From Acuticoccus sp. MNP-M23 (GTDB lineage: Bacteria > Pseudomonadota > Alphaproteobacteria > Rhizobiales > Amorphaceae): a stretch of DNA of 64,000 nucleotides. Position numbers and translations under genes: made by a program. The stretch's first letter is position 1. Each line of letters begins with the position of its first letter. The notes under the pieces are model-generated. The model ran no database searches. It was not told where the DNA came from and saw only the letters and a program-made list of their open reading frames with translations. Shown here piece by piece: positions 7,571 through 23,970 of this stretch. Location of the stretch: NCBI RefSeq assembly GCF_031195445.1, contig NZ_CP133480.1, positions 682,001 to 746,000 on the forward strand. The letters run 5' to 3'.

Positions 7571-7660
7571 GGAGCCGTGGCCGAGAGGCTGAAGGCGGCG
7601 GTTTGCTAAACCGTTAGGCGGGGTAAACCCGTCTCGAGGGTTCGAATCCCTCCGGCTCCG
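7571..7660 (+). tRNA. tRNA-Ser (anticodon GCU)
   Basis: The acceptor stem GGAGCCG pairs with CGGCTCC, followed by discriminator G (7660) and an encoded CCA (7661-7663). The D-arm GTGGCCGAGAGGCTGAAGGC is followed by an anticodon stem GCGGT/ACCGT with loop TTGCTAA, giving anticodon GCU, which reads AGC/AGU. A long class II variable arm and the T-arm GGGTTCGAATCCC complete the serine tRNA. Its 3' end is repeated exactly at 18723-18737 and served as the integration site of the adjacent element. The element restores the 3' end, so the tRNA stays intact. Confidence 0.97.
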
Positions 7661-7663
7661 CCA
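7649..7663 (+). repeat. attL core: 3' end of tRNA-Ser
   Basis: CCTCCGGCTCCGCCA is shared base for base with 18723-18737. It covers the end of the T-arm, the acceptor 3' strand and CCA, the classic crossover region for tRNA-targeting tyrosine integrases. Confidence 0.88.
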
Positions 7664-7971
7664 TCATCCCTCCTAACCAATTGAAATGGCTTGGAATTTT
7701 AACCGGGCTTTTGATGTACCAGCCATAGCACCTGCCATCCTCAGCGCCGACGATCTCGTGCGATTCCGTGGTAGCCTCGGCAGCTCCATGCGGTAGAGTT
7801 GCGACATAAAATTCGTAACGGGTCGATTTTGATACCGGGACCAATATCCGTTTTAAGCGGAAAATCCATTTTATATCAGGGCACAATACCAATGATATGT
7901 GGGTGCACATTGAACCAAACATTCGAAATTCACATTTCTGTGGAGGTTCACGGATGTGTGGAACGTGCTAA
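7664..7971. other. AT-richer non-coding leader of the element
   Basis: About 300 bases between the attachment core and hicA, clearly lower in GC than the flanking chromosome. No supported gene; it presumably holds the hicAB promoter. A minus-strand frame that runs into the tRNA is an artefact. Confidence 0.5.
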
Positions 7972-8160
7972 ATGAATGCTCCTGAGCTGAAACGCTGGCT
8001 AAGCAAGCATGGGTGCACGTTCGACACGCATAAGGGCGGCAGCGGCCACCTCACCGTCAAAAGAGGAGATAGGAAAACGCAGCTGCCGATGCACGGTGGC
8101 CGTAAAGAGTTGGGAAGCGGTTTAGTGGCGAAGATTAAGAAGGATTTGGGGTTAGCATAA
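7972..8160 (+). CDS. hicA: HicA-type mRNA interferase toxin
   Basis: A 62-residue protein with the HicA fold (double-stranded RNA-binding-like): an N-terminal helix ELKRWLSKHGCTF, the catalytic-histidine motif GGSGHLTVKRG, and HGGRKELGSGLVAKIKKDLGL. HicA toxins cleave mRNA when not bound by HicB. Its stop overlaps the hicB start by one base (TAATG), so the pair is translationally coupled. It lies just inside the left end of the satellite-like element and converges with the element's late genes. It may stabilise the element or act in inter-phage defence. Confidence 0.9.
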   Translation: MNAPELKRWLSKHGCTFDTHKGGSGHLTVKRGDRKTQLPMHGGRKELGSGLVAKIKKDLGLA

Positions 8161-8606
8161 TGGCCTTCTACCCTATCAAATTTGCGATCGATGGTGACTC
8201 TTGGCTTGTGACCTCGCCTGACTTTCCCGAGGTCACAACGTTTGGCGACACACAGGAAGATGGCGCGAGAAACGCCGTAAGTGCTATCGAGGAAGCTATT
8301 TCGTCTCGGATGGCTGATAATCAGGTTTTGCCTCCGCCCTATGACGATCGCGAGGGTGGCCAGTATGCGGTGCAGCTACCATCGATGAGCCTGCTCAAGT
8401 CTTGGCTCTATATGATTTGTAAGCTCGATAATATTAGCCGTGCAGAGTTGCAGAGGCGGCTCGACGTGGGACGTGAAACCATCGATCGTCTCTTTCGGCT
8501 AGATCACAATAGCAAGCTTGATCAACTTGAACGGGCTTTTGAAGCTGTGGGGCATCCGCTTGAGTTTGGTCCTGCCGGGCGGGCATGGACTCATGAAGCC
8601 GCCTAA
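8160..8606 (+). CDS. hicB: HicB-type antitoxin with C-terminal HTH
   Basis: A 148-residue antitoxin: the N-terminal ~70 residues have the partial RNase-H fold of HicB (YPIKFAIDGDSWLVTSPDFPEVTTFGDT..A..NAVSAIEEAI), and the C-terminal part is a helix-turn-helix (NISRAELQRRLDVGRETIDRLFRLDHNSKLDQLERAFEAVG) that should bind the hicAB promoter for autoregulation. It ends 10 bases from the convergent zinc-finger gene. Confidence 0.88.
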   Translation: MAFYPIKFAIDGDSWLVTSPDFPEVTTFGDTQEDGARNAVSAIEEAISSRMADNQVLPPPYDDREGGQYAVQLPSMSLLKSWLYMICKLDNISRAELQRRLDVGRETIDRLFRLDHNSKLDQLERAFEAVGHPLEFGPAGRAWTHEAA

Positions 8607-8616
8607 GCTCCGGCGC

Positions 8617-8985
8617 CTATGACCGGCGTCGCGCTCTCTCGCGCGCGACCGCCGAGCATCGTTGAGCGCAATATCTCCGGCGACTGCTTCCCTTGAAGGG
8701 CGCCCCGCAGTTCTCACACAGATGGGATACACCGCCAGCATTCTGGCAGGCGTGCGAGCAGAACCGCGCACGGGCGTTCATGTTGGCTGGCACATCCGCA
8801 CCACACCGTTCGCAAGGTGGTCGCCCTGCCTTCGCCTCCAGCACCGCATCGGCCTCAAGCTGATCGTGGTGGCGTATCTGGCAACGCAGCGAGCAATAGA
8901 TACGCTTCACCGCGTGCGGCTTGGTGCGGTCGATCTTGCCGCCGCACCACGGGCATAGGTCACGAAAGTCGAGCGGCTGTGTCAT
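8617..8985 (-). CDS. Triple treble-clef/zinc-ribbon protein of the satellite
   Basis: A 122-residue protein containing three consecutive CxxC...CxxxC zinc modules: CPWCGG...YCSLRC, CERCGA...FCSHAC and CENCGA...YCAQRC, spaced 24-30 residues apart, with basic residues after each. ATG 8985 overlaps the end of the preceding gene by 26 bases, so it is the last gene of the element's long minus-strand operon. No function is known to me. Position after the head genes and the zinc-module repeats are compatible with nucleic-acid or protein binding, for example redirecting a helper phage or its transcription. That is inference only. Confidence 0.75.
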   Translation of the reverse strand: MTQPLDFRDLCPWCGGKIDRTKPHAVKRIYCSLRCQIRHHDQLEADAVLEAKAGRPPCERCGADVPANMNARARFCSHACQNAGGVSHLCENCGAPFKGSSRRRYCAQRCSAVARERARRRS

Positions 8986-9445
8986 AGGCCCGTTCGTCGT
9001 TGAAGTTGTGTAGGCGGGCAAGGCGCATGTGGTAGGCCTTCGCACAGAGCGTCCCGCAGAACTTGGTGTGCTCGCCCGGCAGCGGCTTGTGGCACCGCAC
9101 GCACCGGGTCCGCTCAATCTGCGCACCGGCGCCGAGCTGCACGTAGTCGGGCTGTCCTTCGGCCCATGTCGGGCGGACGGCACCAACAAGCGCCAGCCCG
9201 CGCGCCACCACGTCCCCCGCGATAAGGTCAGCCTCGGACCACAGCTTGCCGCGAAGGCAGAGTCGCGAGCGAATCGCTTGGCGGATGGGTGCCTCGAAGG
9301 CGAACTTGGAGGGTGCACCGTCCTCCAGCCCGCCACGGATAATGTCAGCGACGGCCGCGGCCATCATCTGGCGGCGCCGGTCATTCAGGCCGCGCGGTGC
9401 CTTCGTCGGCGGCACCGGTGTCGGCCATGAGACACGGGCCAGCAC
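8960..9445 (-). CDS. Satellite protein with C-terminal zinc ribbon
   Basis: A 161-residue protein starting at GTG 9445, two bases after the portal stop, so probably coupled to it. The first ~100 residues are helical and uncharacterised (NDRRRQMMAAAVADIIRGGLEDGAPSKFAFEAPIRQAIRSRL). Near residue 120 is one zinc module, CVRCHKPLPGEHTKFCGTLC, of the same CxxC...CxxxC type as the three modules in the next gene. It is probably functionally linked to that gene. No family was recognised. Confidence 0.7.
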   Translation of the reverse strand: MLARVSWPTPVPPTKAPRGLNDRRRQMMAAAVADIIRGGLEDGAPSKFAFEAPIRQAIRSRLCLRGKLWSEADLIAGDVVARGLALVGAVRPTWAEGQPDYVQLGAGAQIERTRCVRCHKPLPGEHTKFCGTLCAKAYHMRLARLHNFNDERAYDTAARLS

Positions 9446-9446
9446 G

Positions 9447-10496
9447 TCAGGCCCAATTGATGAGTTTTAAGCCGGCCTCAACCTGTTGCGGCTCCAGCCC
9501 CGCCTGGTTGGCCTCTGCGATCGCCTTGACCATTGTGCCGAACGCGCGAGCCCGCCCGCCAGCGTCGAAGGCCTGGAGGGGTCGCATCACGTCCAGCGTG
9601 ACCACCGCGCCGAGTTTGTCGGTGGCCTCCTCGGCGATGGCCGCCGCAATCGGTTGCAACACCCACTGCGCAAGATGGCGTTGAGCCTCACGGACAAGCG
9701 GCCCTTGTGCCGCCGAGCCGAACCACGACGGCAACACCCCGAACACCGCGGAGACGCCCTCACGGGCCGCCGCAAGGCTCTCAGCCGTCATCGCCCGCGA
9801 GAGGTCTGGCGTCAGATCGTTGGGCCGCCAGTCGGCCTGCGGTGCCGGTCCGCCGGCCGCGCTTACGTTCACGGATTCGCGCACCAAGACACGCCCCCGC
9901 GCGCTGCGAAAGCCTCGGGCAAGCGCCTCCAGGTCCGCCTCGGGCGCCTCCGGAAATGGGACAATCATGCTGCCCACCGGCGCCAGAGCATAGGTCTCTG
10001 CCAACGCCACCTCGAGCGCGTGCAAGAGGTCGGCGGTCAGGCTGGCACGCCTCAGCGGAGCGCTGCCGAACCACGGTTGCGACGGGTCCGCGCCGATGGT
10101 GACGTGCAACACTTCGGACGCGAGCACCGTGCGGCTTGTCGCGCCGCCGGTGTCGGCGACGGACACGCGATAGGCGCGCGGCCGGCCGTTGCGGGTCGAG
10201 AGGTCCCAGTCTGAAACCGGCAACAGCCCATCGGCATCGGCCACGAGAAGCGCCTCGCCGCGCAAGGCCAGGGACCGGCCCATCATGGCGAGCGTGCGGC
10301 GGTTGAGGAACGTGGTGCCGGTCACGTCGGCGAGCGAAAGCCCGTGCTCCCACAAGCTGACGCAGGACTGCACCGTCGCCGTCAATTCCGCCAGCCCGCG
10401 CCCGCCGGTGATGTACGCCTCGCGCGCCTGGATCACCTGAGCGGTGTAGCCAGTCGAGCGCTTTTCGATCTCGGGTTTACGCCAGGGCCAGCGCAT
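9447..10496 (-). CDS. Phage portal protein (HK97-type, short)
   Basis: A 349-residue portal, the dodecameric DNA channel at one capsid vertex. The pattern is that of HK97-family portals: N-terminal MRWPWRKPEIEKR, then TTFLNRRTLAMMGRSLALRGEALL, LLPVSDWDLSTRNGRPRAYRV, a stem/wing region ADPSQPWFGSAPLRRASL, and the C-terminal clip and crown helices (AAREGVSAVFGVLPSWFGSAAQGPLVREAQRHLAQWVLQPI). ATG 10496 follows GGAGGG and overlaps the connector gene by 20 bases. It is shorter than typical HK97 portals (about 400 residues), as expected for a compact satellite head. Confidence 0.85.
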   Translation of the reverse strand: MRWPWRKPEIEKRSTGYTAQVIQAREAYITGGRGLAELTATVQSCVSLWEHGLSLADVTGTTFLNRRTLAMMGRSLALRGEALLVADADGLLPVSDWDLSTRNGRPRAYRVSVADTGGATSRTVLASEVLHVTIGADPSQPWFGSAPLRRASLTADLLHALEVALAETYALAPVGSMIVPFPEAPEADLEALARGFRSARGRVLVRESVNVSAAGGPAPQADWRPNDLTPDLSRAMTAESLAAAREGVSAVFGVLPSWFGSAAQGPLVREAQRHLAQWVLQPIAAAIAEEATDKLGAVVTLDVMRPLQAFDAGGRARAFGTMVKAIAEANQAGLEPQQVEAGLKLINWA

Positions 10497-11004
10497 GATT
10501 CGCCCTCCGGTAAGGTCTGAGAAGGTCTGCCGCGCCGCTGTTCTGGAGCGCCTTGGCGATCCATGCGGCCGGCCGCTGATAGGATTCGCGGATCGCACCA
10601 GCCATGTCGGCCTCGTAGGCGGTCACGCCCGCACGATCGTCGGTGTCTGCGAGGTAGGCGACGAGGCGCGCATGGGCCTCCAGGACGGCATCGGGGCACG
10701 GTCCCGCGCCAACGTCCGCCGTGAAGCGCCACGTTGCGCAGCGCGGCAGGATCAATCCGCCGAGACGCCCCGAGGCCATGGACACCGGCTGATAGGCATT
10801 GCCTTCCCACTCTTCGGCGGTGTCGATGGTTGCAGGTGACAGCCGCGGCAACCATTCGCCCGGACCTTCCACCACCCAAACGACTTCGCGGACAGTCCAG
10901 CGGTGCGCGACGTAGGCTTCAATCCGCTGCCACGCCACATCGCCGTCCGTGTTCGGATAGGCCGCCGGCGCGGTTTCCACTTCGCCCAGGATGATCGGGA
11001 TCAT
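10477..11004 (-). CDS. Head-tail connector protein (gp6-like)
   Basis: A 175-residue protein in the connector position between protease and portal. The N-terminal half (AWQRIEAYVAHRWTVREVVWVVEG) and C-terminal helices (VLEAHARLVAYLADTDDRAGVTAYEADMAGAIRESYQRPAAWI) match the uncharacterised phage connector/gp6-like proteins by pattern. ATG 11004 overlaps the protease stop in an ATGA. It would sit beneath the portal and form the tail-docking surface, important if the element borrows tails. Confidence 0.65.
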   Translation of the reverse strand: MIPIILGEVETAPAAYPNTDGDVAWQRIEAYVAHRWTVREVVWVVEGPGEWLPRLSPATIDTAEEWEGNAYQPVSMASGRLGGLILPRCATWRFTADVGAGPCPDAVLEAHARLVAYLADTDDRAGVTAYEADMAGAIRESYQRPAAWIAKALQNSGAADLLRPYRRANHALALA

Positions 11005-11543
11005 GCGCGCCACCTCCGCATTGCGCGGGTAGGCCGCGCGGGTTGATCCGGCTGCCAAGCGCGCGCCTCGATCTGTGCCGTGGGATAGGCCGGCCGGGTG
11101 ACGGTGCTGATCTCGAACAAAGCCGCGCGGGTGATCGTCCGCAGCATGTCCGCGCCGCGCCGCTCGATCCGCTCGCCATCGCTGGCAACACGAAAGCCCG
11201 GTGAAAGTCCGCGGATCAGCCCGGACGCATGGGCGGCGAGGAAGTCTCGTGCCCAGGACGTGCCACCGTCCAGCGTCGCTTCGATCCGCAGCGCGTCGGC
11301 GCCATCGGTCAGGTTGAGTGTGCCCGCTGCCCGAGAGGCGAGCGGGCGGTTGTAGTCGTGTCCGGCGAGGAGGTGAATATCCTCGCCCGCGTCGATCCGG
11401 TCAGCGAAAGCCCGTGCGGCGATCACCTCGTGCCGGCCCGGTGCCAACTCGGTTTCAGCGCCATAGGGGAACGTCGCCCGGAGACGGGTTGCCCCGCCTT
11501 CGCTGCGCAATTCCAGCGCGCCGAGAGACGCCCCCCACAGCAT
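11001..11543 (-). CDS. HK97-type prohead maturation protease
   Basis: A 180-residue serine protease of the U35/S78 type. Signature elements are the active-site histidine in HLLAGHDYNRPLA, and the catalytic serine region SGLIRGLSPGFRV, followed by the conserved EISTVTRPAYPTAQIEAR strand. It processes the capsid N-terminal delta domain during head maturation. It lies downstream of the capsid gene, the reverse of the HK97 order (protease before capsid). Confidence 0.85.
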   Translation of the reverse strand: MLWGASLGALELRSEGGATRLRATFPYGAETELAPGRHEVIAARAFADRIDAGEDIHLLAGHDYNRPLASRAAGTLNLTDGADALRIEATLDGGTSWARDFLAAHASGLIRGLSPGFRVASDGERIERRGADMLRTITRAALFEISTVTRPAYPTAQIEARAWQPDQPARPTRAMRRWRA

Positions 11544-11544
11544 C

Positions 11545-12819
11545 TTAGGCGCCCGCTTCGAGCAGAAGCCCGGTGAGGAGCTGGAGCTGTGCCGGGCGGG
11601 CGACCGTGACGTCCATCGTCGCGAGGGCCGTGATGCGAAGGCCGCCGGACTGTGCGTCGGTGAAGGGATCGCGGATCATGTCGATTGCGCCCCAGGCGCC
11701 AACGAAAATCGGTGCGATACCGCCTGCCGAGGTCGTCAGAAGGGCCTGCGTCTCCAGCGGGTCGCCTGCGGGTGCGGCAAGCCCGTTGGTCGTCATGGCG
11801 ATGTTGCTGACCGGGATATTGCGGGTCAGCTTATCCCATTCGGTCCGGGCGAGGTCCGCGTCGGACGTGTCGTCCAGAAGGCTCCACAACTCGGGGCGGA
11901 TCAGGGCGCGGATGCCGCCGGGGCCGGTCGCTGCGTTCGCGGTCATGAAGCGCACAACGCCGGCCCGCACTGCTGCCCAGGTCGCAAGCGCGTCCACGTC
12001 GGTTGCGGTGATGCCGTAGGTCGCGGCGCCGGTGATGACGCCGAGCGGCTGGCCGTTGGCGCCGGTGCCGAGGAACACCGCCCGGTCCATCGCAACCGCC
12101 ATCACGCTATTCATGTCGCGACGCACCGCCTGTTCCAGCGCGGCGCCGGACTGCTTCAGCGCCTTGCGGGTGATCCGCATTTGGACGCCGAGGTTGTGAT
12201 CGGGCGCCAGCGCGCGATCCGTCGTGGCGAACGCCGTCGGCCCCGCGACGTTCGCGGTCTCGCCATCGGCCCACCCGGCCGTCACCGCCGACGTGACCAC
12301 CGGCCACTCGACTTCGCCGTGGTCGATCTGGATCACCTGAGCGCCCATGCGGGACGCCGCAGTGTCAGGAAACAGGCGGTCGATGATCGGGCGCGTCTGG
12401 ATCGGATCGGGCACACCGGCCGCGACGGTCTCGCCGGCACGCACTTCCAGCGCCTGCCACGGCACCGGCACGCCGCGATAGCCGCCGCGGCTCCGCAGCT
12501 CCTGCACCACCTCGCCGGTGCGCCCGCTGAACTGCCGGCCTTCGTCGAGGTAAAGCGCCACCTGTCGCATCTCAAAGCCGGACACCAGATCGGCGTATTC
12601 GCGGCCTTCGCGGGTTTCCAGCTCCTCGCCGGCCTCGCGCCGTTCGGTGTCCTCGGCGATCAGCGCCGCGCGGAAGCGAACCTCGTTCGTCCGATATTCG
12701 GCATCGAGCGTGTTCATGGACCGCTGCTCGTCATCGGTCGGATTGTCGTTGCTCGCCAGCTCGGCAAGCTGCTGCCGGATTTCGCTCTGGCGGCGCTGTA
12801 GTTTGGTGCTGTTCAGCAT
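11545..12819 (-). CDS. Major capsid protein, HK97 fold
   Basis: A 424-residue capsid protein. Residues 1-~100 are a charged coiled-coil delta/scaffold domain (LQRRQSEIRQQLAELASNDN, then EDTERREAGEELETREGREY) that the adjacent protease should remove. The remainder contains typical HK97-fold patterns (E-loop region AGETVAAGVPDP, VPVVTSAVTAGWADGE, the spine helix RITRKALKQSGAALEQAVRRDMNSVMAVAMDRAVFLGTGANGQPLGV). It starts with a 7-base overlap with the HNH gene. Presence of its own capsid separates this element from satellites that remodel helper capsids. Confidence 0.92.
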   Translation of the reverse strand: MLNSTKLQRRQSEIRQQLAELASNDNPTDDEQRSMNTLDAEYRTNEVRFRAALIAEDTERREAGEELETREGREYADLVSGFEMRQVALYLDEGRQFSGRTGEVVQELRSRGGYRGVPVPWQALEVRAGETVAAGVPDPIQTRPIIDRLFPDTAASRMGAQVIQIDHGEVEWPVVTSAVTAGWADGETANVAGPTAFATTDRALAPDHNLGVQMRITRKALKQSGAALEQAVRRDMNSVMAVAMDRAVFLGTGANGQPLGVITGAATYGITATDVDALATWAAVRAGVVRFMTANAATGPGGIRALIRPELWSLLDDTSDADLARTEWDKLTRNIPVSNIAMTTNGLAAPAGDPLETQALLTTSAGGIAPIFVGAWGAIDMIRDPFTDAQSGGLRITALATMDVTVARPAQLQLLTGLLLEAGA

Positions 12820-13109
12820 TTCACGTCCTCACGCAGAAGTGCCGCCCACGCGAGGCGGTCGGGGTTTGGGGCGGATCGCCCTTGTTCGAGGTTGGTCTTG
12901 CGGGTGTGACAGCCGGGGCAAAGCGGCTGGAGGTTCGAGGCGTCCCAAGCCAGTTGCGGGTCAGTCCGCACCGGCTTGATGTGGTCGATCTCAAGGCGAG
13001 CACGGGCACCGCAGGCACGGCACTTGAAGCCGTCGCGGCGAAGCACCTGGAGGCGCAACGCAGCCCATCGGGCGCCGCGGGTGATGTGCTTGGAGTGGCG
13101 GGCGATCAT
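12813..13109 (-). CDS. HNH endonuclease (packaging-associated)
   Basis: A 98-residue HNH nuclease: CRACG ... LEIDHIKPV ... NLQPLCPGCHTRKT, with the HNH core and two CxxC zinc knuckles. Small HNH proteins encoded beside large terminase genes assist DNA packaging in many HK97-like phages and are a hallmark of cf-PICI head modules. It overlaps both neighbours by 4-7 bases. Confidence 0.88.
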   Translation of the reverse strand: MIARHSKHITRGARWAALRLQVLRRDGFKCRACGARARLEIDHIKPVRTDPQLAWDASNLQPLCPGCHTRKTNLEQGRSAPNPDRLAWAALLREDVKC

Positions 13110-13471
13110 CGGCCCACCCGCAGGTCATAGAACAGCGGTTCGCCGTCGGTGGCGAGTTGCGCCACCGCGATGATGATCCAGTCCTCACCGTCCATCCGCA
13201 GCGCGTCGGAGGTGTCCGGTTCGATCGGCAGTCCATCGGTTGAGACGAGGACGCGCATGTCGCCAGGCTCCAGCGAGCCGCTTTGCTGGTGCGCGAGGAC
13301 AACGGTTGCGTCGATCGTCGCGGCGGTAGCCGGGTAGACGGTCGCCTCGCCGGGTATTTCGTTGCCATAGCCGTCATCGGTCGGCTCGCCGGGACGCACG
13401 ATCTCAACCGTTCGCCCGAAGCGGGCGATCAGCCGGGTCGCCGTCCGTTGGAATGCCGGATTCAGCCCCAT
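13106..13471 (-). CDS. Head-tail adaptor / head-closure protein
   Basis: A 121-residue, beta-rich protein with the SPP1 gp16-like adaptor pattern: GLNPAFQRTATRLIARFGRTVEIVRPG, the loop GYGNEIPGE, and a C-terminal DGEDWIIIAVAQLATDGEPLFYDLRV. It overlaps the terminase end by 10 bases and the HNH gene by 4. It would close the filled head and offer the tail-binding interface. Confidence 0.7.
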   Translation of the reverse strand: MGLNPAFQRTATRLIARFGRTVEIVRPGEPTDDGYGNEIPGEATVYPATAATIDATVVLAHQQSGSLEPGDMRVLVSTDGLPIEPDTSDALRMDGEDWIIIAVAQLATDGEPLFYDLRVGR

Positions 13472-14970
13472 GCCATTCGCCCCTTCGTCGCCGTCGCGCG
13501 GCCGACCATGCGAGCGCCTTGCGCCACCGCGATCACCGTGGCCGCCGCAGCGTCGATCCGGCCGTTGGAGCGGGCCTTGGCGAGCTTCAGGTTGTTTGCA
13601 GGATCACGCAGGCAAACCGCGTCCGCGAAAGCCGATCTCAACAGCAGCGACGGCTTGGACTTCACCTGTCCGTCAAAGGCCGCGCGCCGGAAACGTTCGC
13701 AGTCTTCGCCACCGTCACGGAAGCCTTGGCCGCGCCAGACGATGGGGAACCGCAGCCCGGTCGCGTCTATCGCCTCGCCGAGTTCGGCCTGTTTGTAGCG
13801 GTCAGCAACGATGGCGGCGACTTCATAGCCTTGGACATGACGGGCAACTTCATTCAGCCAGGGCGCCACCGGCACCGTCTGCTCGCCGAGCACGTCCAGC
13901 TCGCCGCGGTCCTGCATCTCGCAATAGCGCGCGCTGACACCATCAGCTTGTCCGCGATCCAGCAGCGAGGGTTTCGACGGGAACGTGCCGAGGCATTCGA
14001 GCCGCCCGGTGGCAGGCCAGAAAAACGCCGCTGCGGACATGCTCGCAGAGCCGCCTAGGTCGACGCCAATGACGCAGGCGCCCTCACGCGCTGGAAGGTC
14101 GGACACCTCGCAATTGAGCCATTCGTCGGTGGTTAGCAACACGTCGCGGGCCTCGCCGCTGACGCGCTCGTTTCGGTGAAAGAGGCGGTAGGATGTGAGG
14201 GTCGAGCCACCGCGTGCGATGGCGCGCCGGCCTTGCGCTTTCAGCCATTCGACGCTTGCGCCAATGCCCGCTTCCGCGCCGGGATTTGCCAACATCAGGC
14301 TTTCGCGGTCATCAGCAGGCAATGAAGGCGCAGGCCGGTGCTCTTGGGAAAAGACGCCAACCTGCGCTTCATCCAGCCAGCGAGAAAACGGGTGGCTGTC
14401 GTCGCTCGCCGAAGTGCTGATAATCAGCGCCCGGCCACCACGCTTGCCCAGGCCGGTCAGCAGCGCGTGCTCCAGCGAATCGCCCCTGTCGAGCGCCCAG
14501 TGGCCGCGTTCGTCCATCAGCACGAACGTCGGTGACGTGCCTAGCGCTGACTTGCCGTCCGCAGGCAGCACGCGGATTTCATGCTCGTTGTCGAGAGTGA
14601 CAGAGAGGATCGGCGAGCGACGAAACTGGAGACGTGCCCGGATATCGTCAGGGAGGCTTCGCGCCAGACCCTCAATATAGGTCCACGCAATTCGGCCTTG
14701 GTCGCGGGTTCGAGCACCAATCAAAATTTCGCGACGGGGCTGGGCGTCCCACACGCCGAGGAGAGCGCCGAGAGCGAGGCCGGCGGACAATGCCGTCTTG
14801 CCGTTGCCGCGACCGACACTGAGGCAAGCGACGTTCACGCCGTCGGCAAGCGCACCCTTGAGGAACGACTTCTGGAACGGCGCCAGCTTCAACGGCCGGC
14901 CCGCCAAGGGTCCCTCGGGGATCTCCAGCGATGTGAGGAACCGGGTTGCAAGGGTTGCGTCAGTTGCCAT
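13462..14970 (-). CDS. Large terminase subunit (TerL)
   Basis: A 502-residue packaging motor. The ATPase domain has Walker A SVGRGNGKTALSAG and Walker B TFVLMDERGHW, with the coupling motif LIISTSASDD; the C-terminal nuclease domain has CVIGVDLGGSASMSA, AAIVADRYKQAE and a final acidic residue region (GRIDAAAATVIAVAQG). ATG 14970 gives the family-like N-terminus MATDATLATRFLTSLEIPEG; a GTG at 15018 is possible. No recognisable small terminase is next to it. The 74-residue gene at 15132-15356 occupies the usual TerS place. Confidence 0.92.
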   Translation of the reverse strand: MATDATLATRFLTSLEIPEGPLAGRPLKLAPFQKSFLKGALADGVNVACLSVGRGNGKTALSAGLALGALLGVWDAQPRREILIGARTRDQGRIAWTYIEGLARSLPDDIRARLQFRRSPILSVTLDNEHEIRVLPADGKSALGTSPTFVLMDERGHWALDRGDSLEHALLTGLGKRGGRALIISTSASDDSHPFSRWLDEAQVGVFSQEHRPAPSLPADDRESLMLANPGAEAGIGASVEWLKAQGRRAIARGGSTLTSYRLFHRNERVSGEARDVLLTTDEWLNCEVSDLPAREGACVIGVDLGGSASMSAAAFFWPATGRLECLGTFPSKPSLLDRGQADGVSARYCEMQDRGELDVLGEQTVPVAPWLNEVARHVQGYEVAAIVADRYKQAELGEAIDATGLRFPIVWRGQGFRDGGEDCERFRRAAFDGQVKSKPSLLLRSAFADAVCLRDPANNLKLAKARSNGRIDAAAATVIAVAQGARMVGRATATKGRMAWG

Positions 14971-15131
14971 CTGCCACCCCCAGGTAGCGAGCAAGGAAAT
15001 GTCCCACACCGGTCCCACCCTTCAGCAGAGACGCGGGCATTGGGACCAATTTGATGTGCGGTGCTGCGGCAGGCTTAGCCAAGCGTCTGTTCTCGCGTGC
15101 GGTATCATAATACCTCAACAACGCTAAGCGC

Positions 15132-15356
15132 TCAAAGGTATTCCGCTACCGTCCACAAGGTATCGCGCACTTGGCGGGCTTCGTCGCTGCCTTCGTTGGC
15201 GGCCTTCTGCAACCTGCGGAGGCCGGCCTCGCGGGAAGTTCCTGTTGGCCGGTCGTGTATAATATCAACGACCGGCCCCATCCGTCCGGTATGCGGATCG
15301 CGTGCCTGACCTGCCGTATGGATTGTTAGCGCCGCCGGCTGGTTCGGCGTGCTCAC
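15132..15356 (-). CDS. Small satellite protein in the TerS position
   Basis: A 74-residue protein starting at GTG 15356, 33 bases after the primase-polymerase stop. It has a short basic N-terminal part and a C-terminal helical stretch (SREAGLRRLQKAANEGSDEARQVRDTLWTVAEYL). No family was recognised. It could be a minimal small-terminase-like DNA-recognition protein, but no helix-turn-helix is clear. Confidence 0.5.
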   Translation of the reverse strand: MSTPNQPAALTIHTAGQARDPHTGRMGPVVDIIHDRPTGTSREAGLRRLQKAANEGSDEARQVRDTLWTVAEYL

Positions 15357-15388
15357 TCTAACCTGCCCCCTATCAGTCCGGAGGGGGC

Positions 15389-16429
15389 CTAGAGAGGGGG
15401 AGGCAGTGTAAAGTGATTGTGGCCATGATCCGGCCTAGTCAGACGGTATTGACCGGCCAGCCTGCGGCGACCGTCAGGCGGCCTCACAACTTCGAGAAAA
15501 CCCCGCTCAAGCAGCACATCGCGCGCACGCCGGATCCGCGTCCGGTGCCACGGCAGCGTCCCCGCCTCAGACATTGAGCCCGGTGCAATTGCGAACGACT
15601 TTCGGTTCGAGTGGTAAGCCTCGAACATGTGCAGCAACATGAATGCATCGGGGAAGTCTAGGAGACTATCGCGGGCGGCGTCCCACGCCGTGACTTGAGG
15701 CTTTCGCAGCCCGACGAAATTCGAGCCGCGCGCCTCATAGCCCCATGCCGAGCGTGCGACGTTGCCAACTTCGCCGGCCGATAGCGGGTCGGGCATCTGT
15801 TCATTCCAAGTTGTGCACACGTCCTCCAGCGCGGCGAGGTCGTCACAAGAGCGCGCCTGCGTCATCGCAAACCGAAAGAGCCGGTTGTTGCGCTCGCCTG
15901 CCTGGACGCTCTCAGCAGGCCGGCCAGCGTATCCTGCACCGGCTTCCAGCGCCCTCCGGCGGATTGTCGGCAGTCGCGCCACATCGGCGAGTGAGCCTGT
16001 CAGGAAACGATAGCCGGCCCCTAAGTCGTCGCGCCAGCTCGGCGGGGCAACGGTGAAGCCACTGCCGAGCACGTCGACATTTACTACCGGGCGAATAAGC
16101 CGGCGTTCGCCATTGTGGCGATACCAGATTTTGCTTTTCCCGCTCGCCGTTCTGATCGTTATCGGGCTTTCGCCGAACCTCTCCAGCGCCGCGCCGAGCG
16201 CCGCATCGCCGACAATGTCAACGTCGATTTCGGTCAGGCCGGACGCCTCGCCCATGACAACGCCGAGCCCGTCAGCGTGGGGAAACTTCTCGGCCCATGC
16301 ACGCGCCGAGCGTGGCGTCGCGCGCTGCCAGTTGCGCACCGCAGGGCGCTTGCGGCGGGTATCCACCGGAAAGCACGGCAAACCTGCGGCAGAATAAGCG
16401 TCTGCATGGGCCGCGAACACGCCAGTCAC
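15389..16429 (-). CDS. Bifunctional primase-polymerase (prim-pol) domain protein
   Basis: A 346-residue protein whose first ~200 residues are a prim-pol domain: AAGLPCFPVDTRRKRPAVRNW, the catalytic acidic pair in GLTEIDVDIVGD, the nucleotide-binding GKSKIWYRH and VLGSGFTVAPPSW. The C-terminal part lacks an evident helicase domain and ends in a winged-helix-like segment (TRIRRARDVLLERGFLEVV). It starts at GTG 16429, overlapping the previous stop by one base. It likely replicates the excised element, as Pri-Rep proteins do in PICIs. Confidence 0.82.
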   Translation of the reverse strand: MTGVFAAHADAYSAAGLPCFPVDTRRKRPAVRNWQRATPRSARAWAEKFPHADGLGVVMGEASGLTEIDVDIVGDAALGAALERFGESPITIRTASGKSKIWYRHNGERRLIRPVVNVDVLGSGFTVAPPSWRDDLGAGYRFLTGSLADVARLPTIRRRALEAGAGYAGRPAESVQAGERNNRLFRFAMTQARSCDDLAALEDVCTTWNEQMPDPLSAGEVGNVARSAWGYEARGSNFVGLRKPQVTAWDAARDSLLDFPDAFMLLHMFEAYHSNRKSFAIAPGSMSEAGTLPWHRTRIRRARDVLLERGFLEVVRPPDGRRRLAGQYRLTRPDHGHNHFTLPPPL

Positions 16430-16653
16430 TAGGCGGCGTGCCTTGCGTCGTGGCGGGCGATGTTCGCGAGGCCAACCGCCTTGCAGGCTTCGTTGGCGGA
16501 AAGGCCGAACCGCGCCTTCAACGCCGGAATTATCGGCCGCGGCTGGTCTTCAATCGAGGTGTCGAAGAGAAATTGCGCCGCCTCGGCAACGGCGGCCGAC
16601 ACCGTGTCAACTTCATCGCGTTCGCGGGTAAGCTCGCGGCTCCTGGCGGCCAT
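16429..16653 (-). CDS. Small satellite protein between alpA and prim-pol
   Basis: A 74-residue protein beginning at ATG 16653, overlapping the alpA stop (TAATG). It is charged and helical (MAARSRELTRERDEVDTVSAAVAEAAQFLFD) with a C-terminal section PALKARFGLSANEACKAVGLANIAR that resembles a helix-turn-helix. Probably a DNA-binding accessory factor of replication or regulation; no family recognised. Confidence 0.6.
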   Translation of the reverse strand: MAARSRELTRERDEVDTVSAAVAEAAQFLFDTSIEDQPRPIIPALKARFGLSANEACKAVGLANIARHDARHAA

Positions 16654-16835
16654 TACGCTGCCGCCTTCGCAAGTTCCCAAGCCTCAATTTCGCTCAGCTT
16701 CCAGCGCGTGCAGCCGGGCGACAGCGTCACCGCGCGTGGGAACTCGGCCTGCTCGCGATGCCAGCGCCAGACGGTCTGGCGCGTCACGCCCCAGCGCGCA
16801 GCAAGATTTTTGTCGGAAGCGTATTGTTTTGCCAT
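16653..16835 (-). CDS. AlpA-like excisionase/regulator
   Basis: A 60-residue winged-helix protein: YASDKNLAARWGVTRQTVWRWHR followed by FPRAVTLSPGCTRWKLSEIEAWE, the AlpA/MerR-like pattern found in P4-type and PICI elements, where it activates replication genes or excision. ATG 16835 follows GAGGTG. It heads the replication-packaging operon; a 69-base gap separates it from the upstream pair of genes. Confidence 0.85.
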   Translation of the reverse strand: MAKQYASDKNLAARWGVTRQTVWRWHREQAEFPRAVTLSPGCTRWKLSEIEAWELAKAAA

Positions 16836-16904
16836 TTGGGCACCTCGTTGTTACGGGTGCCGTCTAAAATTCACATGTTCGGGCCGTCTAAAATGCCCCG
16901 GCTA

Positions 16905-17261
16905 TTATCTTTCTTTCCTGTCAGCCGCTTTTCGCCGCCCACGCCGCTTCGCACTGGACGATAGGAACACCACGTCCTTTGGCTCGATCCGCGACTCCAG
17001 CGCGTCGATATAAAAGTCGTTTGCAATAAACCACAGGTCCGCAGCCAGCTCTACTTTGCCGACCGTAAGCTCTTCAAGGCCCCGCTTCGCCGTTCTTCTT
17101 GCTTCGCGCCATGCCAAACGGCCAGTGTGCAGGTCGTCGAGAGCGCGACGCTCATCGGCGTTCCCCTCTCCCCACCAAGCCGGCCCCTTGACATTGTCAG
17201 CACCTTGCGTGCGAACGAGAAGGCGTTTCAGGCGCCGTTCTGTCTCCTCCGCGTCCATCAT
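16905..17261 (-). CDS. Unknown protein coupled to the integrase
   Basis: A 118-residue, highly charged helical protein whose ATG overlaps the integrase stop in an ATGA. Its N-terminus is acidic (MMDAEETERRLKRLL) and its C-terminus strongly basic (SSAKRRGRRKAADRKER). No family was recognised. Its coupling to the integrase suggests a role in recombination or its control. Confidence 0.6.
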   Translation of the reverse strand: MMDAEETERRLKRLLVRTQGADNVKGPAWWGEGNADERRALDDLHTGRLAWREARRTAKRGLEELTVGKVELAADLWFIANDFYIDALESRIEPKDVVFLSSSAKRRGRRKAADRKER

Positions 17262-18544
17262 GCTCGTGCAGCCATCTGCACGACGTTCGCCGCATCTTCC
17301 TCGCCGTGAAGGAAAGAGCCCCAGCTCGCCATCATCGCACGCCGCTTCTCCAACATGTCCCCGCGCCGATAGGCTCGCTCCACTTCTGAACCGACTGTGT
17401 GCGCGAGCGCGATCTCGGCCATTTCATAGGGCCATTGAGTCCGCTCGGCGGCCCAATCGCGGAACGTACTCCGCAGCCCGTGCGGAACGGCCGGTCGTCC
17501 TGATCGGCGATCCAGATAGCCCCCTTCCCGCGCGGTGTTTACGCGCCGCATGCACGCCGACAGCGCCATGTCCGACAGCATCCCGCCCCGCGCCGCCGGG
17601 AACACGAAGTCGCTGCCCTCCATCCGCGCCAATCCCTCCAGAAGCGATATCGCATCGTCGGTGAGCGGGACGCGATGTTCGACACGGGCCTTCATCCTCA
17701 CCGCCGGCACGACCCACAACCGCGCGGCAAGGTCGATCTCTGCCCACACCGCGCCACGAACCTCGCCGGAGCGCGCCGCTGTCACCGCCATGAACTCCAA
17801 CGCGCGCGTGGCGCTCCCGTTGCGAGCGCGCACATCCACGAACCAGTCCGCAGCCTCGTCGAGCTTAAGCGCCGGGTGATGCTCTACCGTCTGCACCTTC
17901 GAGGGCTTCGGAAGGATAGCATCTAGATTGCCGCGCCACCGCGCAGGATTGTCGCCGGTGCGATGCCCGTTGACGGTCGCCCAGGCCAGCACCGCTTCCA
18001 CTCGCCCGCGTAGCCGTGATGCCGTCTCGTTTTTCTCAACCCAGATAGGGGCGAGGATACGTTGCACGTCGGAAACGCCAATATCCGACACCAGCATGTC
18101 ACCCACGGCCGGGACCGCGTAGGCATCCAGCGTGGACCGCCACTGCTTGCGGTGCTTGTCGCTGCGGAACTCAGCGAGCTTGTTTTTAAGATACCGTTCC
18201 ATCGCGTCGCTGAAGGTCATGCCCCGCTTTCGGGCCGCTACCAACGCCGCCGCCGTCGCCTTCCGATGCTCCACCGGATCGACACCCTGCCGGATCAGCT
18301 CGCGGGCTTCTCGTGCGCGATCACGCGCGCCGGCCAACGGCACGTCGGGATAACCGCCGAGGCCGATATGGCGCCGCTTGCCGGCCACCAGACACCGCAG
18401 CAACCAGGACCGCGCCCCGGTCGGCGTCACTTGCAAAATGAGCCCGTCGACGCCACCAACGGCGAATGTTGCGTTGAGGCCGTGTCCGGGATGCCGAAGA
18501 CGCTTCACGTCAAGCGCCGATAGCTCCCGCGCCTTCTTCGGCAT
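17258..18544 (-). CDS. int: Tyrosine integrase, P4 type
   Basis: A 428-residue integrase with the N-terminal DUF4102 arm-binding domain (GVDGLILQVTPTGARSWLLRCLVAGKRRHIGLGGYPDVPLAGARDRA), a core-binding SAM-like domain (~105-205), and the catalytic domain with the first Arg in TAARSGEVRG, HGLRSTFRDW with the second Arg, the conserved LAHTVGSEVERAYRRGD holding His and the nucleophilic Tyr. It is transcribed inward, 178 bases from the right repeat. Integrases of this type use tRNA 3' ends, matching the repeats. Confidence 0.95.
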   Translation of the reverse strand: MPKKARELSALDVKRLRHPGHGLNATFAVGGVDGLILQVTPTGARSWLLRCLVAGKRRHIGLGGYPDVPLAGARDRAREARELIRQGVDPVEHRKATAAALVAARKRGMTFSDAMERYLKNKLAEFRSDKHRKQWRSTLDAYAVPAVGDMLVSDIGVSDVQRILAPIWVEKNETASRLRGRVEAVLAWATVNGHRTGDNPARWRGNLDAILPKPSKVQTVEHHPALKLDEAADWFVDVRARNGSATRALEFMAVTAARSGEVRGAVWAEIDLAARLWVVPAVRMKARVEHRVPLTDDAISLLEGLARMEGSDFVFPAARGGMLSDMALSACMRRVNTAREGGYLDRRSGRPAVPHGLRSTFRDWAAERTQWPYEMAEIALAHTVGSEVERAYRRGDMLEKRRAMMASWGSFLHGEEDAANVVQMAARA

Positions 18545-18722
18545 AGTTCGATTCCCGCTGCGTCCGCCATAGGCCGAAAATCAGCCTACCAATCTACCCG
18601 CCAACAGGTATGGCATTGGACGTTACAGGTTGCAACGGGACGCACCACGAAGGAAGCCAAACTCCCACAGGAACTGCCGATTTTGCGCTTGGATGACACA
18701 GCTTGAAACATGGCAATGGCTG

Positions 18723-18737
18723 CCTCCGGCTCCGCCA
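18723..18737 (+). repeat. attR core: duplicated tRNA-Ser 3' end
   Basis: The same 15 bases as 7649-7663, CCTCCGGCTCCGCCA, without the rest of a tRNA. It marks the right end of the integrated element, just upstream of the integrase gene. Confidence 0.88.
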
Positions 18738-19043
18738 CGCACCCCCTACACATTTCTCTGATTTGAACGCTGGGCATTAAGCCCGCGGAACAGGGCGCGT
18801 TTTCGTCCTGCTTCCGGCACGGGCCCGTCCTGTATCGGCGGTCTCAGCCCGGATTCAGGCGTCCGTTCAGGGCGGTCTCCTCCGGTCGGCAGGAAGGTGG
18901 AGTTTCGGCCACAAGGGCAAGAACAGGGAAATTTGCGGTGTATCGGCGGAAAACAGGCCGAATCCGGCGCACAAGGATGGTCTCGTGCGCGCGAAGGGAC
19001 GCAACTTCAATCGATTAGCGGCCACTGAAACCCGATTCCCTGT
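18738..19043. other. Non-coding stretch right of the satellite
   Basis: About 300 bases without a supported gene. Several short AACAGGG/ACAGG motifs recur here and in the adjacent 3' end of the recombinase gene; they may be remnants of the recombinase module's ends. Confidence 0.4.
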
Positions 19044-20795
19044 TTATGCGCGGAACAGGGTTCGAGAAGTGCATAACAGGTCGCATTGTTTCGCATTAAC
19101 AGGGGTCTCAATGAGCATAACAGGGCGTTTGGCCGGACAATCCATAGCCCGGCTGCTTCCGTTCTCTTCGATGCCACGGCCGCATCGGGCAGCGTTGTTT
19201 GCTGCCCTACGCGCGGCCCACAGCTGCTCCTGGTCTTGCCAACCGAGCGGAATATCGCTGGCGAGCAGTGCCGAAATGGTGAGGCCATGCGGTTGGCGTC
19301 CTTCAAGGATGGCGCGCTGCAGATCGGGCGCGAGGAAGGCGAGCCGAACAAGTCGGCGCCGGTAGGATGATTCCGGGGAGGCGTCCAACATAGGAAGCCC
19401 GCGCGCATCCCGGCGAAGCATTGCGTGGGCCTCGCGTAGCGCTGCGATCAGCTTCGGGTCTGGCCGCGCGACCCGTTTGCCACCGCCCGAGATCAAGGTC
19501 CGTCCGCCCCGGACGGCGATGCTGAACGGAATGATCAGGCGGCAGGCTGCTCGATTCGTCGGATCACGCTCGACCATCTCGTCGCCATCGATGTGGGCCC
19601 GGATTGTCGCCAGATGTTCAGCAGGCAACGTCAGCCGGATGGAGTCCCGATGGACGTCGACGCGACGAAGGAGGTCAAGCGGCTCGGCGCCAAGCCCATG
19701 GAGGAAGCGGCGCAGGATCTCGCTGAGCCGGCCCTCGAAGGAAGCGGCGGGAACACGGCCAACCACGCCATCTTCTGCATCGCCACTGCGCCGCCCCTGC
19801 TGCAACGGTGCGGACACGGTGTAGCGGTAGGTCTTGCCACGCGCGCCGCGTGAAGACGTCGGAGACATGGGCGCGCCAGCGGCATCAAAGATGCGGCCGA
19901 CGAGGGCTGCGGTCTGTGGATCGCTGTTGGCAGTCCCCATCCGTCTCGGATTTGCATCGAGCTGGCGCCGAACCGCCTCGAAAAGATCAGCACCCACGAT
20001 GGCCGGATGCTGGCCGGGATGGGCGTGGTCGCGGTGGAGGGTCATTCCCAGATATGTCCGGTTCCTGAGAAGGTGGAACAGCGCGCCCCGGCTGAACGGC
20101 TTGCCACCGAGCGTCCGCCCCTTCGCCGTCACGCGCGACTTGGACCTGATGCCGCCCTCATCCAGCCTGCGCTCCAGTTCATGCACTGAGCCGAGTTCGA
20201 GATAGGACGTGAAGATCGAGCGCACGGTCTCTGCCTCGGCAGCGTTGACCTCGAGCGCGCGTGATCCCGGGGCTGGCGTGTCGTCTCCGAGAGGCAGTGT
20301 GCCGCCCATCCACATCCCCTTGGCCTTGGAGGCGGCGATCTTGTCCCGGATGCGTTCGCCGGTGACTTCGCGCTCGAACTGGGCGAAAGAGAGAAGGACG
20401 TTGAGGGTCAGCCGGCCCATGCTGCTGGTGGTGTTGAACGCTTGGGTGACGGAAACGAAGCTGACGCCGTGGGCGTCGAAGATCTCGACCATGCGGGCAA
20501 AATCGGCGAGGGAGCGGGTCAGCCGATCGATCTTGTAGACGACAACGACGTCGATCTGGCCCGCGGCGATGTCCGCCAGAAGCCGCTTCAGCGCCGGGCG
20601 TTCCATTGTTGCACCGGAGATGCCGCCGTCGTCATAGCGGTCCGGCAAGGCCCGCCATCCCTCGCTGGCCTGACTCTTCACATAAGCGGCGCAGGCCTCC
20701 CGTTGCGCATCGAGGCTGTTGAAGGCCTGTTCGAGGCCTTCCTCTGAACTCTTGTGAGTGTAGAGGACGCAGCGCTTGATCGATGGCTTCGTCAT
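19044..20795 (-). CDS. Large serine recombinase with altered active-site Arg
   Basis: A 583-residue large serine recombinase: an N-terminal resolvase domain (residues 1-~150, with KSSEEGLEQAFNSLDAQREACAAYV, DDGGISGATMERPALKRLL, KIDRLTRSLADFARMVE), a recombinase domain (~165-280, PFSRGALFHLLRNRTYLGM) and a zinc-ribbon-like/coiled-coil end. ATG 20795 overlaps the DUF2924 stop (ATGA). In this family the start reads YTRKSSEEG; here it is YTHKSSEEG, replacing the Arg equivalent to resolvase Arg8 by His (codon CAC). The C-terminus is longer than usual and its last ~60 residues look like read-through sequence. Possibly inactive. Confidence 0.85.
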   Translation of the reverse strand: MTKPSIKRCVLYTHKSSEEGLEQAFNSLDAQREACAAYVKSQASEGWRALPDRYDDGGISGATMERPALKRLLADIAAGQIDVVVVYKIDRLTRSLADFARMVEIFDAHGVSFVSVTQAFNTTSSMGRLTLNVLLSFAQFEREVTGERIRDKIAASKAKGMWMGGTLPLGDDTPAPGSRALEVNAAEAETVRSIFTSYLELGSVHELERRLDEGGIRSKSRVTAKGRTLGGKPFSRGALFHLLRNRTYLGMTLHRDHAHPGQHPAIVGADLFEAVRRQLDANPRRMGTANSDPQTAALVGRIFDAAGAPMSPTSSRGARGKTYRYTVSAPLQQGRRSGDAEDGVVGRVPAASFEGRLSEILRRFLHGLGAEPLDLLRRVDVHRDSIRLTLPAEHLATIRAHIDGDEMVERDPTNRAACRLIIPFSIAVRGGRTLISGGGKRVARPDPKLIAALREAHAMLRRDARGLPMLDASPESSYRRRLVRLAFLAPDLQRAILEGRQPHGLTISALLASDIPLGWQDQEQLWAARRAANNAARCGRGIEENGSSRAMDCPAKRPVMLIETPVNAKQCDLLCTSRTLFRA

Positions 20796-21219
20796 GGCCG
20801 GCCAGTCCCGATATCCTGCTTCCGCAGACCAAAGAACCGCGGTCCGTTCCAGCGCGCGCCGGCGATTGCCGTCGCGACGGCGGAGAGGCTGGGAAAGAGT
20901 TCGCCGCGCCACCGAAAGCCTTTTGCTTCGACAACGACCTCGATGAGCTCACCCTTCCAGTTTCGTCGCATGACCGCGCCGAGGCCGAGGTCCAAGCCCT
21001 CGGCCTGAATACGGCCAGTGGCGGCCAATCGACGCTTTAATCCCGTTCGAGCCCACCAAGCGCCTCGGCCTGAAGGCGCCATGCGAGCATGAGCCGCATC
21101 AGCTCCGCAGAGCGCAGCTTTGGAGGCGTGCCCCAGCGCGTGCGCCATTTTACGCGCAGCCTGTTGAGATCGGAATGACGGATCGCATCCACGTTGGTTG
21201 CAAGCACGTTGTCACTCAT
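20792..21219 (-). pseudogene. DUF2924 gene, frameshifted
   Basis: DUF2924 proteins accompany serine recombinases of this type. The N-terminal part (from ATG 21217-21219: HSDLNRLRVKWRTRWG..., MRLMLAWRLQAEALGGL) runs into a stop near 21037, while the rest (TGLKRRLAATGR, MRRNWKGELIEVVVEAKGFRWRGELFPSLSAVATAI, ARWNGPRFFGL) continues in another frame. A frameshift near 21045-21060 separates them. It overlaps both neighbours with ATGA, showing the old operon DUF3489-DUF2924-recombinase. Confidence 0.8.
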
Positions 21220-21545
21220 GCCGTGTCTCCGATGCGATAACGGCGGACGCCGTCCGCCTTCTCCGAGGTAACGGTCAAGCCCTTCTTCTAGAGCGCGCCA
21301 CGAACCGAATGGGTCTGCCAGCCGGTCGCGGCGGTCATCTCGGCGAGGGTCGACCCCTCGGGTCAGGAAAGCAACTCCGTCAAGACAGCGAGCTTCATGG
21401 GCTTCAATGCGGCCGGCGCGGACGGGCCGGCCGTGCTTCCGGACTGAGGAGTCGCCGTTCGAGATAACGCCCTTGAAGGCTTTACCTCGTGCTCCGCCCT
21501 GGCGTCGGCGGCACCCCTGACATTCGATTTCTTCGTGGGGGTCAT
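21216..21545 (-). pseudogene. DUF3489 gene with two nonsense codons
   Basis: Starting at ATG 21545 (MTPTKKSN), the reading frame shows the DUF3489 pattern KLAVLTELLS-stop-PEGSTLAEMTAATGWQTHSVRGAL-stop-KKGLTVTSEKADGVRRYRI. Both stops are in the same frame and interrupt well-conserved segments (a TGA at 21363-21365 and a TAG near 21290). The end overlaps the DUF2924 start. These small proteins are the first gene of the recombinase operon in many Alphaproteobacteria. Confidence 0.8.
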
Positions 21546-21566
21546 AAGCGGCTCCCGGTTCCGCAG

Positions 21567-22741
21567 CGGATCAAACTCCGCCGCTACCGGCACATCCGGG
21601 CTTTGGGCTTCGCCAACCCGATCCTGATCGACGACGACAGCGTGATTATCGCCGGGGACGGACGGCTGATGGCCGCGAACGCAATCGGAATGACCGAAGT
21701 TCCGACCATCGCGCTGCGAGGTCTGGACGAGGCACGCAAACGCGCCCTGCGGCTCGCCGACAACAAGATCGCGCTGAATGCTGGCTGGGACATTGATCTT
21801 CTGCAAGCCGAGCTGGGCGAACTCTCAACGCTCGATGTCGACCTTGATCTGACACTGACCGGCTTTGCATCGGGCGAGATCGACGTGATCCTCGGCGGTT
21901 CCGAGGACCCCGACGATGAACTCGTTCCTGCCGTGCCAAAGACCCCGCGGACGAGGCCAGGAAATGTCTGGATCTTCGGCGAACACCGCGTTGGCTGCGG
22001 CGATGGGCGCGAACCTGAGTTCCTGCGCCGGGTAGTCGGAAAAGATGCGGCGGTCGACGCTGCCTTTCTCGATCCGCCCTAAAACGTGCCGATCAACGGC
22101 TTCGCCAACGCGAAGGGCCGTCATGCCGAATTCGCGATGGCGTCTGGCGAAACGACCGAAGCGGCGTTCTTCACCTTCCTTGCAGAAACTCTTGGCGCCG
22201 CCGCAGTCGTCTCGCGGGACGGTGCCGTTCACTTCGTTTGCATGGACTGGAGGCACACCGACCAGCTCTTGACCGTCGGCCGCTCCGTCTATGGTGATCT
22301 CCTGAACCTTTGCGTGTGGAACAAGTCCAACGCCGGGATGGGTTCACTTTATCGCTCGAAGCATGAGCTGATATTCGTTTGGCGGGTCGGTGCGCGGGGG
22401 CGCATTTCAATGCCGTAGAGCTCGGCAAGCACGGTCGCAATCGAACGAATGTCTGGGACTATGCGTCGGTCAACTCGATGAAGGGAAGCCGGCGCGAAGA
22501 CCTCGCGCTGCATCCAACCGTAAAACCGACGGCGTTGGTGGCGGATGCGATTCAGGACGTCACGAAACGTGGCGACCTCGTGCTTGATCTCTTCCTTGGA
22601 TCCGGGACGACGCTGATCGCGGCCGAGCGTACAGGGCGGCGGTTCCGGGGGGGGGGGGGAATTGCTCCTGGCTACGTCGATTTAGCGCTCGCACGCTGGT
22701 CAGCAATGACGGGTCTTGAGCCTGTTCTCGAAGAGGTGTGA
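21567..22741 (+). pseudogene. ParB-domain adenine DNA methyltransferase, broken
   Basis: The N-terminal ParB/Srx-like domain (IRALGFANPILIDDDSVIIAGDGRLMAANAIGM, ADNKIALNAGW) has lost its beginning. The methyltransferase motif that should read DPPYNVP has a TAA at 22080-22082 in place of Tyr. The frame then continues (NVPINGFANAKGRH, HFVCMDWRHTDQLL, NLCVWNKSNAGMGSLYRSKHELIFV), shifts near 22385-22405 and ends with NRTNVWDYASVNS, LHPTVKPTALVADAIQDV and the SAM motif LFLGSGTTLIAAERTG. A 13-G run replaces the segment before GYVDLAL. The upstream end overlaps the antisense DUF3489 remnant. At least three lesions make it non-functional. Confidence 0.85.
22647..22659 (+). repeat. Homopolymer of 13 G
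   Basis: Thirteen consecutive G lie inside the methyltransferase remnant, directly after the AAERTGRR motif. Length changes here would shift the reading frame. Confidence 0.9.
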
Positions 22742-23789: not shown

Positions 23790-23970
23790 GATCGGCGGCT
23801 TACACTCGAGCAGCAGAAGATCGTCTTCAAGGCGACCCGCTCACCAGGAAAAGTAGACTGGCCCGCATGGTGGAACGTTCTGCCGTGACGGCAAAGCCGC
23901 CATCGAGCCGATAATGCACGTTCATCGAACCGGCCTTTCGAGGCTTCGCAAGTTCGACGGTTTTTGAGAA

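Follow-up and report, generated by a model that had tools for sequence, protein, structure and literature searches.

Capsid-forming phage-inducible chromosomal islands (cf-PICIs), EcCIEDL933 and its relatives, were reportedly described by Alqurainy et al. in 2023. They encode their own capsid, protease, portal, connectors, small and large terminase subunits (TerS, TerL) and an HNH protein, and need a helper phage for tails only (PMC10690885). Two further papers place them chiefly in Enterobacteriaceae, Pasteurella, Morganellaceae and Firmicutes at an average of about 14 kb (PMC10803314) and divide their capsids into three radiations (PMC11389934). The Streptomyces phage satellites MulchRoom and MiniFlayer also have capsid and packaging genes of their own, and MulchRoom appears to use the tail of its helper (PMC10690885). 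Here we examined a stretch of 64,000 nucleotides from Acuticoccus sp. MNP-M23 (NZ_CP133480.1, positions 682,001 to 746,000; 'the window'). In it a first-pass annotation, made from the letters alone, had proposed a compact, tail-less capsid satellite in a tRNA-Ser gene, probably an alphaproteobacterial cf-PICI. From its genes and those of its relatives we consider this element to be a capsid-forming phage satellite, with a probability of roughly 0.85. The comparisons support that it is one member of a lineage of such satellites and not a prophage which recently lost its tail, and most likely it would spread with tails taken from a different phage.

The borders of the island are the following:

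7571..7663, plus strand: tRNA-Ser(GCT), the integration target, still intact (ARAGORN; Rfam tRNA)
7649..7663, plus strand: attL core CCTCCGGCTCCGCCA, identical with the last 15 bases of the tRNA-Ser (exact repeat)
18723..18737, plus strand: attR core, an exact copy of CCTCCGGCTCCGCCA

In a 64-kb sequence of the window's composition 0.01 matches of this 15-bp repeat are expected by chance. The whole 5.16-Mb genome contains two copies, both bordering the island, and the reversed control gave zero; the exact attachment repeats claimed initially are thus real. The repeats are 11,074 bp apart and enclose 15 minus-strand genes and a HicAB pair on the plus strand. Beyond the tRNA, an Rfam search returned nothing notable.

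A second mobile unit adjoins the right border. Positions 18730-23970 form a 5.24-kb unit with a serine recombinase (19044-20912) and a further open reading frame (ORF) from 21489; it is 99.35% identical to G000:C1:1910962-1916202, and a partial third copy is located at 3182958. Because this unit begins within the attR core, two mobile units abut at tRNA-Ser. We considered whether attR is doubtful, as a genomic repeat starts at 18730. The other 5.24-kb copy, however, follows on another sequence and lacks the 15-mer; therefore the satellite repeat stands and the island adjoins another unit. An inversion was considered as well, since the element lies in reverse orientation compared with the same-genus loci L054 and L170 at the same tRNA. 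It was dismissed: L173-L175 have the orientation of the window element, with 14-bp repeats, so that its orientation relative to the tRNA is an ordinary alternative.

The head, packaging and neck genes and those for integration, regulation and replication are:

13462..15018, minus strand: large terminase subunit TerL, HK97-like (phrog_9, 9e-54; PDB 6z6d TerL, 6e-38)
13106..13471, minus strand: head-closure/stopper protein, type A (phrog_161, 1e-14)
12813..13109, minus strand: HNH endonuclease, packaging associated (profile matches)
11545..12819, minus strand: major capsid protein (MCP), HK97-fold (PF05065, 3.5e-18)
11001..11543, minus strand: S78 prohead protease (PF04586, 4e-23)
10477..11058, minus strand: putative head-tail connector/adaptor, 193 aa (conservation, position, weak fold match)
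9447..10598, minus strand: portal protein (PF04860, 7.7e-11, over the cut-off)
15132..15356, minus strand: hp74, a protein of 74 aa immediately upstream of TerL (possible TerS by position alone)
17258..18544, minus strand: tyrosine integrase (PF00589 Phage_integrase, PF13356 Arm-DNA-bind_3, PF22022 Phage_int_M; phrog_1)
16653..16835, minus strand: AlpA-family excisionase/regulator (PF05930; phrog_66)
15389..16429, minus strand: Prim-Pol + PriCT_1 replication primase (PF09250, PF08708)

Integrase, AlpA, prim-pol, TerL, HNH, capsid, S78 protease and portal each passed the Pfam cut-offs, in agreement with the gene set named at first sight. TerL is 28% identical to that of HK97. The family profile of the capsid matches the PDB 8gta capsid (3e-8), and that of the stopper matches PDB 10lj, 'Stopper protein gp12' (8e-5). 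The gene after TerL, initially called an adaptor, does code for a head-tail neck protein, but one which matches head closure (phrog_161). The 'connector' lies between protease and portal and is conserved in 16 aligned relatives; it has no significant Pfam or PHROG family match of its own; one relative weakly matches the head-tail adaptors of phrog_442 (E 0.012), and an AlphaFold model (pLDDT 79) gave weak structural matches to neck proteins of phages (probability 0.84-0.90, TM about 0.4). The structure model of the portal (pLDDT 40) was too poor and was not used. Of the overlapping starts and stops described initially, the overlaps are 4 nt for int/hp118, 28 for alpA/hp83, 1 for hp83/primpol, 10 for TerL/stopper, 4 for stopper/HNH and 7 for HNH/MCP, but MCP and protease are separated by a gap of 1 nt. 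The largest overlaps (connector, portal and the zinc-finger/HNH-like gene zf2) probably reflect start codons set too far upstream; the true start of the portal is probably near 10496. Pfam and PHROG profile searches recognised no tail or lysis gene in the element, as first proposed.

By gene content the window element matches the published description of a cf-PICI except for TerS: an attachment-bounded island with integrase, AlpA with a primase, a capsid set with portal and protease, TerL with HNH, and no recognised tail or lysis gene. Of the head-tail connectors, the stopper is clear and the second is putative, with weak matches. The size is of the same order as the average of about 14 kb (PMC10803314). 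Compared with the reported cf-PICIs the element differs in that it is alphaproteobacterial, smaller (10-11 kb) and has no recognised TerS. Furthermore, its lineage has two exchangeable adaptor/stopper sets. A cf-PICI-like way of working has good support; with no TerS recognised, the element is a candidate and not a proven member in the strict sense. MulchRoom and MiniFlayer differ by virulent helpers, direct terminal repeats and the absence of a primase (PMC10690885), whereas the window element has a prim-pol and is integrated in a tRNA gene. HK97-like siphophages share TerL, HNH, the HK97-fold capsid, prohead protease, portal and stopper. In contrast to them the element has no recognised tail, lysis or late-regulation genes, its order is capsid-protease-connector-portal, and the stopper sits between TerL and HNH.

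When GTDB genomes were searched with the capsid, 49 loci carrying this head block were identified, all alphaproteobacterial and nearly all from Rhodobacteraceae; the block is also present in 80 IMG/VR loci and in several genomes of the same order. TerL, HNH and capsid are common to the GTDB loci at about 43-80% identity. Protease and portal are kept as well where the contig reaches, and the exceptions are damaged or diverged copies. In most of these loci a tRNA or tmRNA gene is found about 0.5-4 kb past the portal. In 26 loci both ends could be placed as 13-51-bp repeats of a tRNA or tmRNA 3' end, with lengths of 6.6-11.8 kb (median 10.4 kb); the targets are Cys, Glu, Phe, Thr, Asn, Leu, Met and Ser tRNAs and tmRNA. 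The syntenic unit, for which a search at tRNA-Ser and other sites of related genomes had been suggested, is present in such genomes. Further elements from the same order measure about 10.4-11.5 kb, and of 397 genomes of the wider order 26 gave a match to TerL, a close one in about ten. Within Acuticoccus, the same tRNA-Ser is occupied by a relative in genomes G206 and G226, bounded by a 19-bp repeat, and in G131 a relative sits at a tRNA-Arg; in G183, G064 and G245 the tRNA-Ser is present and a close capsid relative was not found. Three contigs (L071, L138 and L141) bear assembler-length repeats at their ends; joined there, they form circles of 10,093, 9,923 and 9,639 bp that carry TerL, HNH, capsid, protease and portal. 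They show that molecules which are excised or circularly permuted exist in nature; packaging does not follow from this. Together with gene content and tail-less relatives, the circles favour the initial classification as an alphaproteobacterial cf-PICI, against which stands the unrecognised TerS.

Portal, protease, stopper and zinc-finger protein of the window are nearest to the G131 element (71-82%), TerL, capsid and HNH to the G226 element (71-81%). As different head genes are nearest to different elements, head genes recombine within the lineage. At L167 two different family members, 78.6% identical, are arranged in tandem 10,196 bp apart. Two members are degraded: L060:5375-12013 is 6.6 kb long and lacks protease and portal, and in L176 the TerL, capsid and portal frames are broken.

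The neck genes were surveyed in 44 loci with TerL and portal (from L040-L088, window included). In 24 of the 44 TerL is preceded by an adaptor-like gene (cluster 6; PHROG head-tail adaptor, 1.8e-16), and in 18 a connector-like gene, the window's type (cluster 9), lies between protease and portal; no locus has both. Stopper type B, where detected, always accompanies the cluster 6 adaptor (12/12) and type A cluster 9 (10/10); these counts ignore kinship, and shared descent of both groups contributes to them. One head type is thus combined with either of two neck modules. This is most simply read as an adaptation to two classes of helper tail, and the linked adaptor and stopper types therefore predict two kinds of helper tail. 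It is a bold and unlikely extension that the lineage switches between two interchangeable modules, each fitting a tail-donor class of its own, with the host's gene transfer agent (GTA) possibly the donor for one class.

A GTA of the RcGTA type as the source of tails, instead of an infecting phage, would be an alternative. Besides those of the element, HK97-type capsid and portal genes occur in the genome only within an RcGTA-like cluster (L207, G000:C1:3611000-3630900), which also has a PF09550 gene and an ORF of 1291 aa. GTAs are common in Rhodobacterales, where the family mainly resides; the element shares an HK97-type head with RcGTA, and some of its relatives carry the RcGTA head-spike base family Rcc01079. 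However, the stopper resembles phage stopper proteins, and GTA producers lyse as a small, host-controlled subpopulation, a poor fit to phage-style replication. The capsid and the stopper- and adaptor-position ORFs of the host GTA have no significant similarity to those of the element. Further, the window element is a mobile, attachment-bounded island with integrase and primase and no recognised tail genes. A GTA as tail donor is possible but unsupported, and we regard it as improbable.

The genome contains a second small phage-like island, L212:13000-19901 continued in L213:1-7700 (G000:C1 about 4298000-4312600). It has an integrase, a DUF5906 primase, a Nu1-type TerS and a 727-aa protein with a minor-tail PF10145 domain, adjoined by a Mu-gpT/Phage_capsid_4 capsid. 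Possibly this is another satellite or a small prophage.

A tailed phage which lost tail, lysis and late genes by deletion would also leave HK97-like head genes of caudovirus origin, and damaged copies (L176 and L060) exist in the family. If so, close relatives should have the same heads followed by tail and lysis genes, as the first-pass annotation had pointed out. We found none, either among the relatives or in phage records. No delimited relative continues into recognised tail or lysis genes; each ends within about 4 kb of the portal. From the 26 delimited elements 120 accessory ORFs were scanned together against PHROGs and Pfam, 30 of them singly. They encode integrases, AlpA-like and phage-type regulators, excisionases, repressors, AAA/primase-helicases, HNH proteins and head-tail adaptors; among the 19 Pfam families matched none was for tail or lysis. 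Thus the search for tail genes near homologous copies, also advised at the outset, recognised none among these and the 25 commonest of 62 PHROG families. The latter included a single 'tail fiber' family, phrog_12296. It was traced to small ORFs at L082:12914-13174 and, by cluster membership, L079:7920-8171, and was rejected as a counter-example because the L082 ORF matches the RcGTA head-spike base Rcc01079 (PDB 6tb9), a part of the capsid; the heads of such relatives may bear vertex spikes. Against 50,697 phage records the best capsid match had at most 28% identity over about 70% of the length and the portal had no match, i.e. no isolated tailed phage has a close capsid or portal. In a TerL tree (FastTree) the 58 loci of the family, window included and L054 and L169 being two copies of one, were on the opposite side of a branch with support 1.0 from 14 other TerLs of the same order. 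Moreover, tens of species have this tail-less arrangement, inserted at many tRNA genes with ends intact and frames open, and closed circles exist, so that the first-pass argument against a tail-deleted prophage has gained strength. A prophage remnant is therefore very improbable; if tails were lost at all, this would have happened long ago in an ancestor of the entire lineage. Also very improbable, although no tail genes were recognised and no helper was identified, are tail-less heads which enter cells otherwise or relic head genes with helper-only packaging, because the portal and the linked adaptor/stopper pairs of the neck are kept, which indicates selection for docking a tail, and in most members the head genes are conserved with open frames.

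Some points weigh against the assignment as a capsid-forming satellite. No island gene matches a TerS family in Pfam or PHROG on its own merits: hp74 has no match in either, and the HNH gene matches one TerS-named PHROG via its HNH domain. The identification of 10477-11058 as a connector is weak. A small tail gene or a rare match may have escaped recognition, since PHROGs are mostly unnamed and the result for accessory ORFs covers the 25 commonest of 62 families. Finally, no helper was identified; besides the RcGTA-like cluster the genome has no further capsid and portal of the HK97 type.

If the island is a capsid-forming satellite, AlpA together with Int would drive excision upon helper infection or induction, and the prim-pol would prime replication of the excised circle. 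TerL and HNH would package about 11 kb into small heads made by the element, to be closed by its own adaptor and stopper. These heads would join tails of the helper phage and be released by helper lysis. A gene basis is seen for every step but tails and lysis; how the steps operate we infer from the gene content.

The remaining features of the island are:

16905..17261, minus strand: hp118, a 118-aa protein, no function assigned (overlaps int by 4 nt)
16429..16680, minus strand: hp83, an 83-aa protein (47% relatives in the same-genus elements L170, L171)
8960..9445, minus strand: 161-aa zinc-finger protein, adjoins the portal (48-71% in L171, L173, L170, L175, L169)
8617..9336, minus strand: zinc-finger/HNH-like protein zf2 (phrog_1271 HNH, phrog_2308)
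7972..8160, plus strand: HicA toxin, probable cargo (PF07927, 1e-9)
8160..8606, plus strand: HicB antitoxin, probable cargo (phrog_497, 6e-16; PF15919 under its cut-off)

The integrase is 41-44% identical to those of related elements; the prim-pol, along most of its length, shares 33% with its counterpart on the circular contig L141. For hp118 neither a Pfam or PHROG match nor a relative among the related loci compared was found. HicAB and the two zinc-finger/HNH-like ORFs (8617-9445) had not been listed in the first-pass annotation; the actual ORF of zf2 is probably about 8617-8991. The HicAB stretch (7664-8617) has a GC content of 0.516 compared to 0.649 for the rest of the element, which points to recent acquisition. 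Likely the pair is cargo with a role in addiction or anti-phage defence.

The islands apparently constitute a large, undescribed family in marine alphaproteobacteria. We found no description of such satellites in Rhodobacterales in the papers searched; the tables of the original cf-PICI paper may already include the family. If the assignment is true, a large and separately diversified set of satellites resides in the roseobacters and their alphaproteobacterial kin, which are abundant marine bacteria, and a share of the short 10-kb proviruses in databases from there would be complete and not broken. The linked neck modules would then offer a direct test of tail compatibility, the step which is thought to set the host range of satellites.

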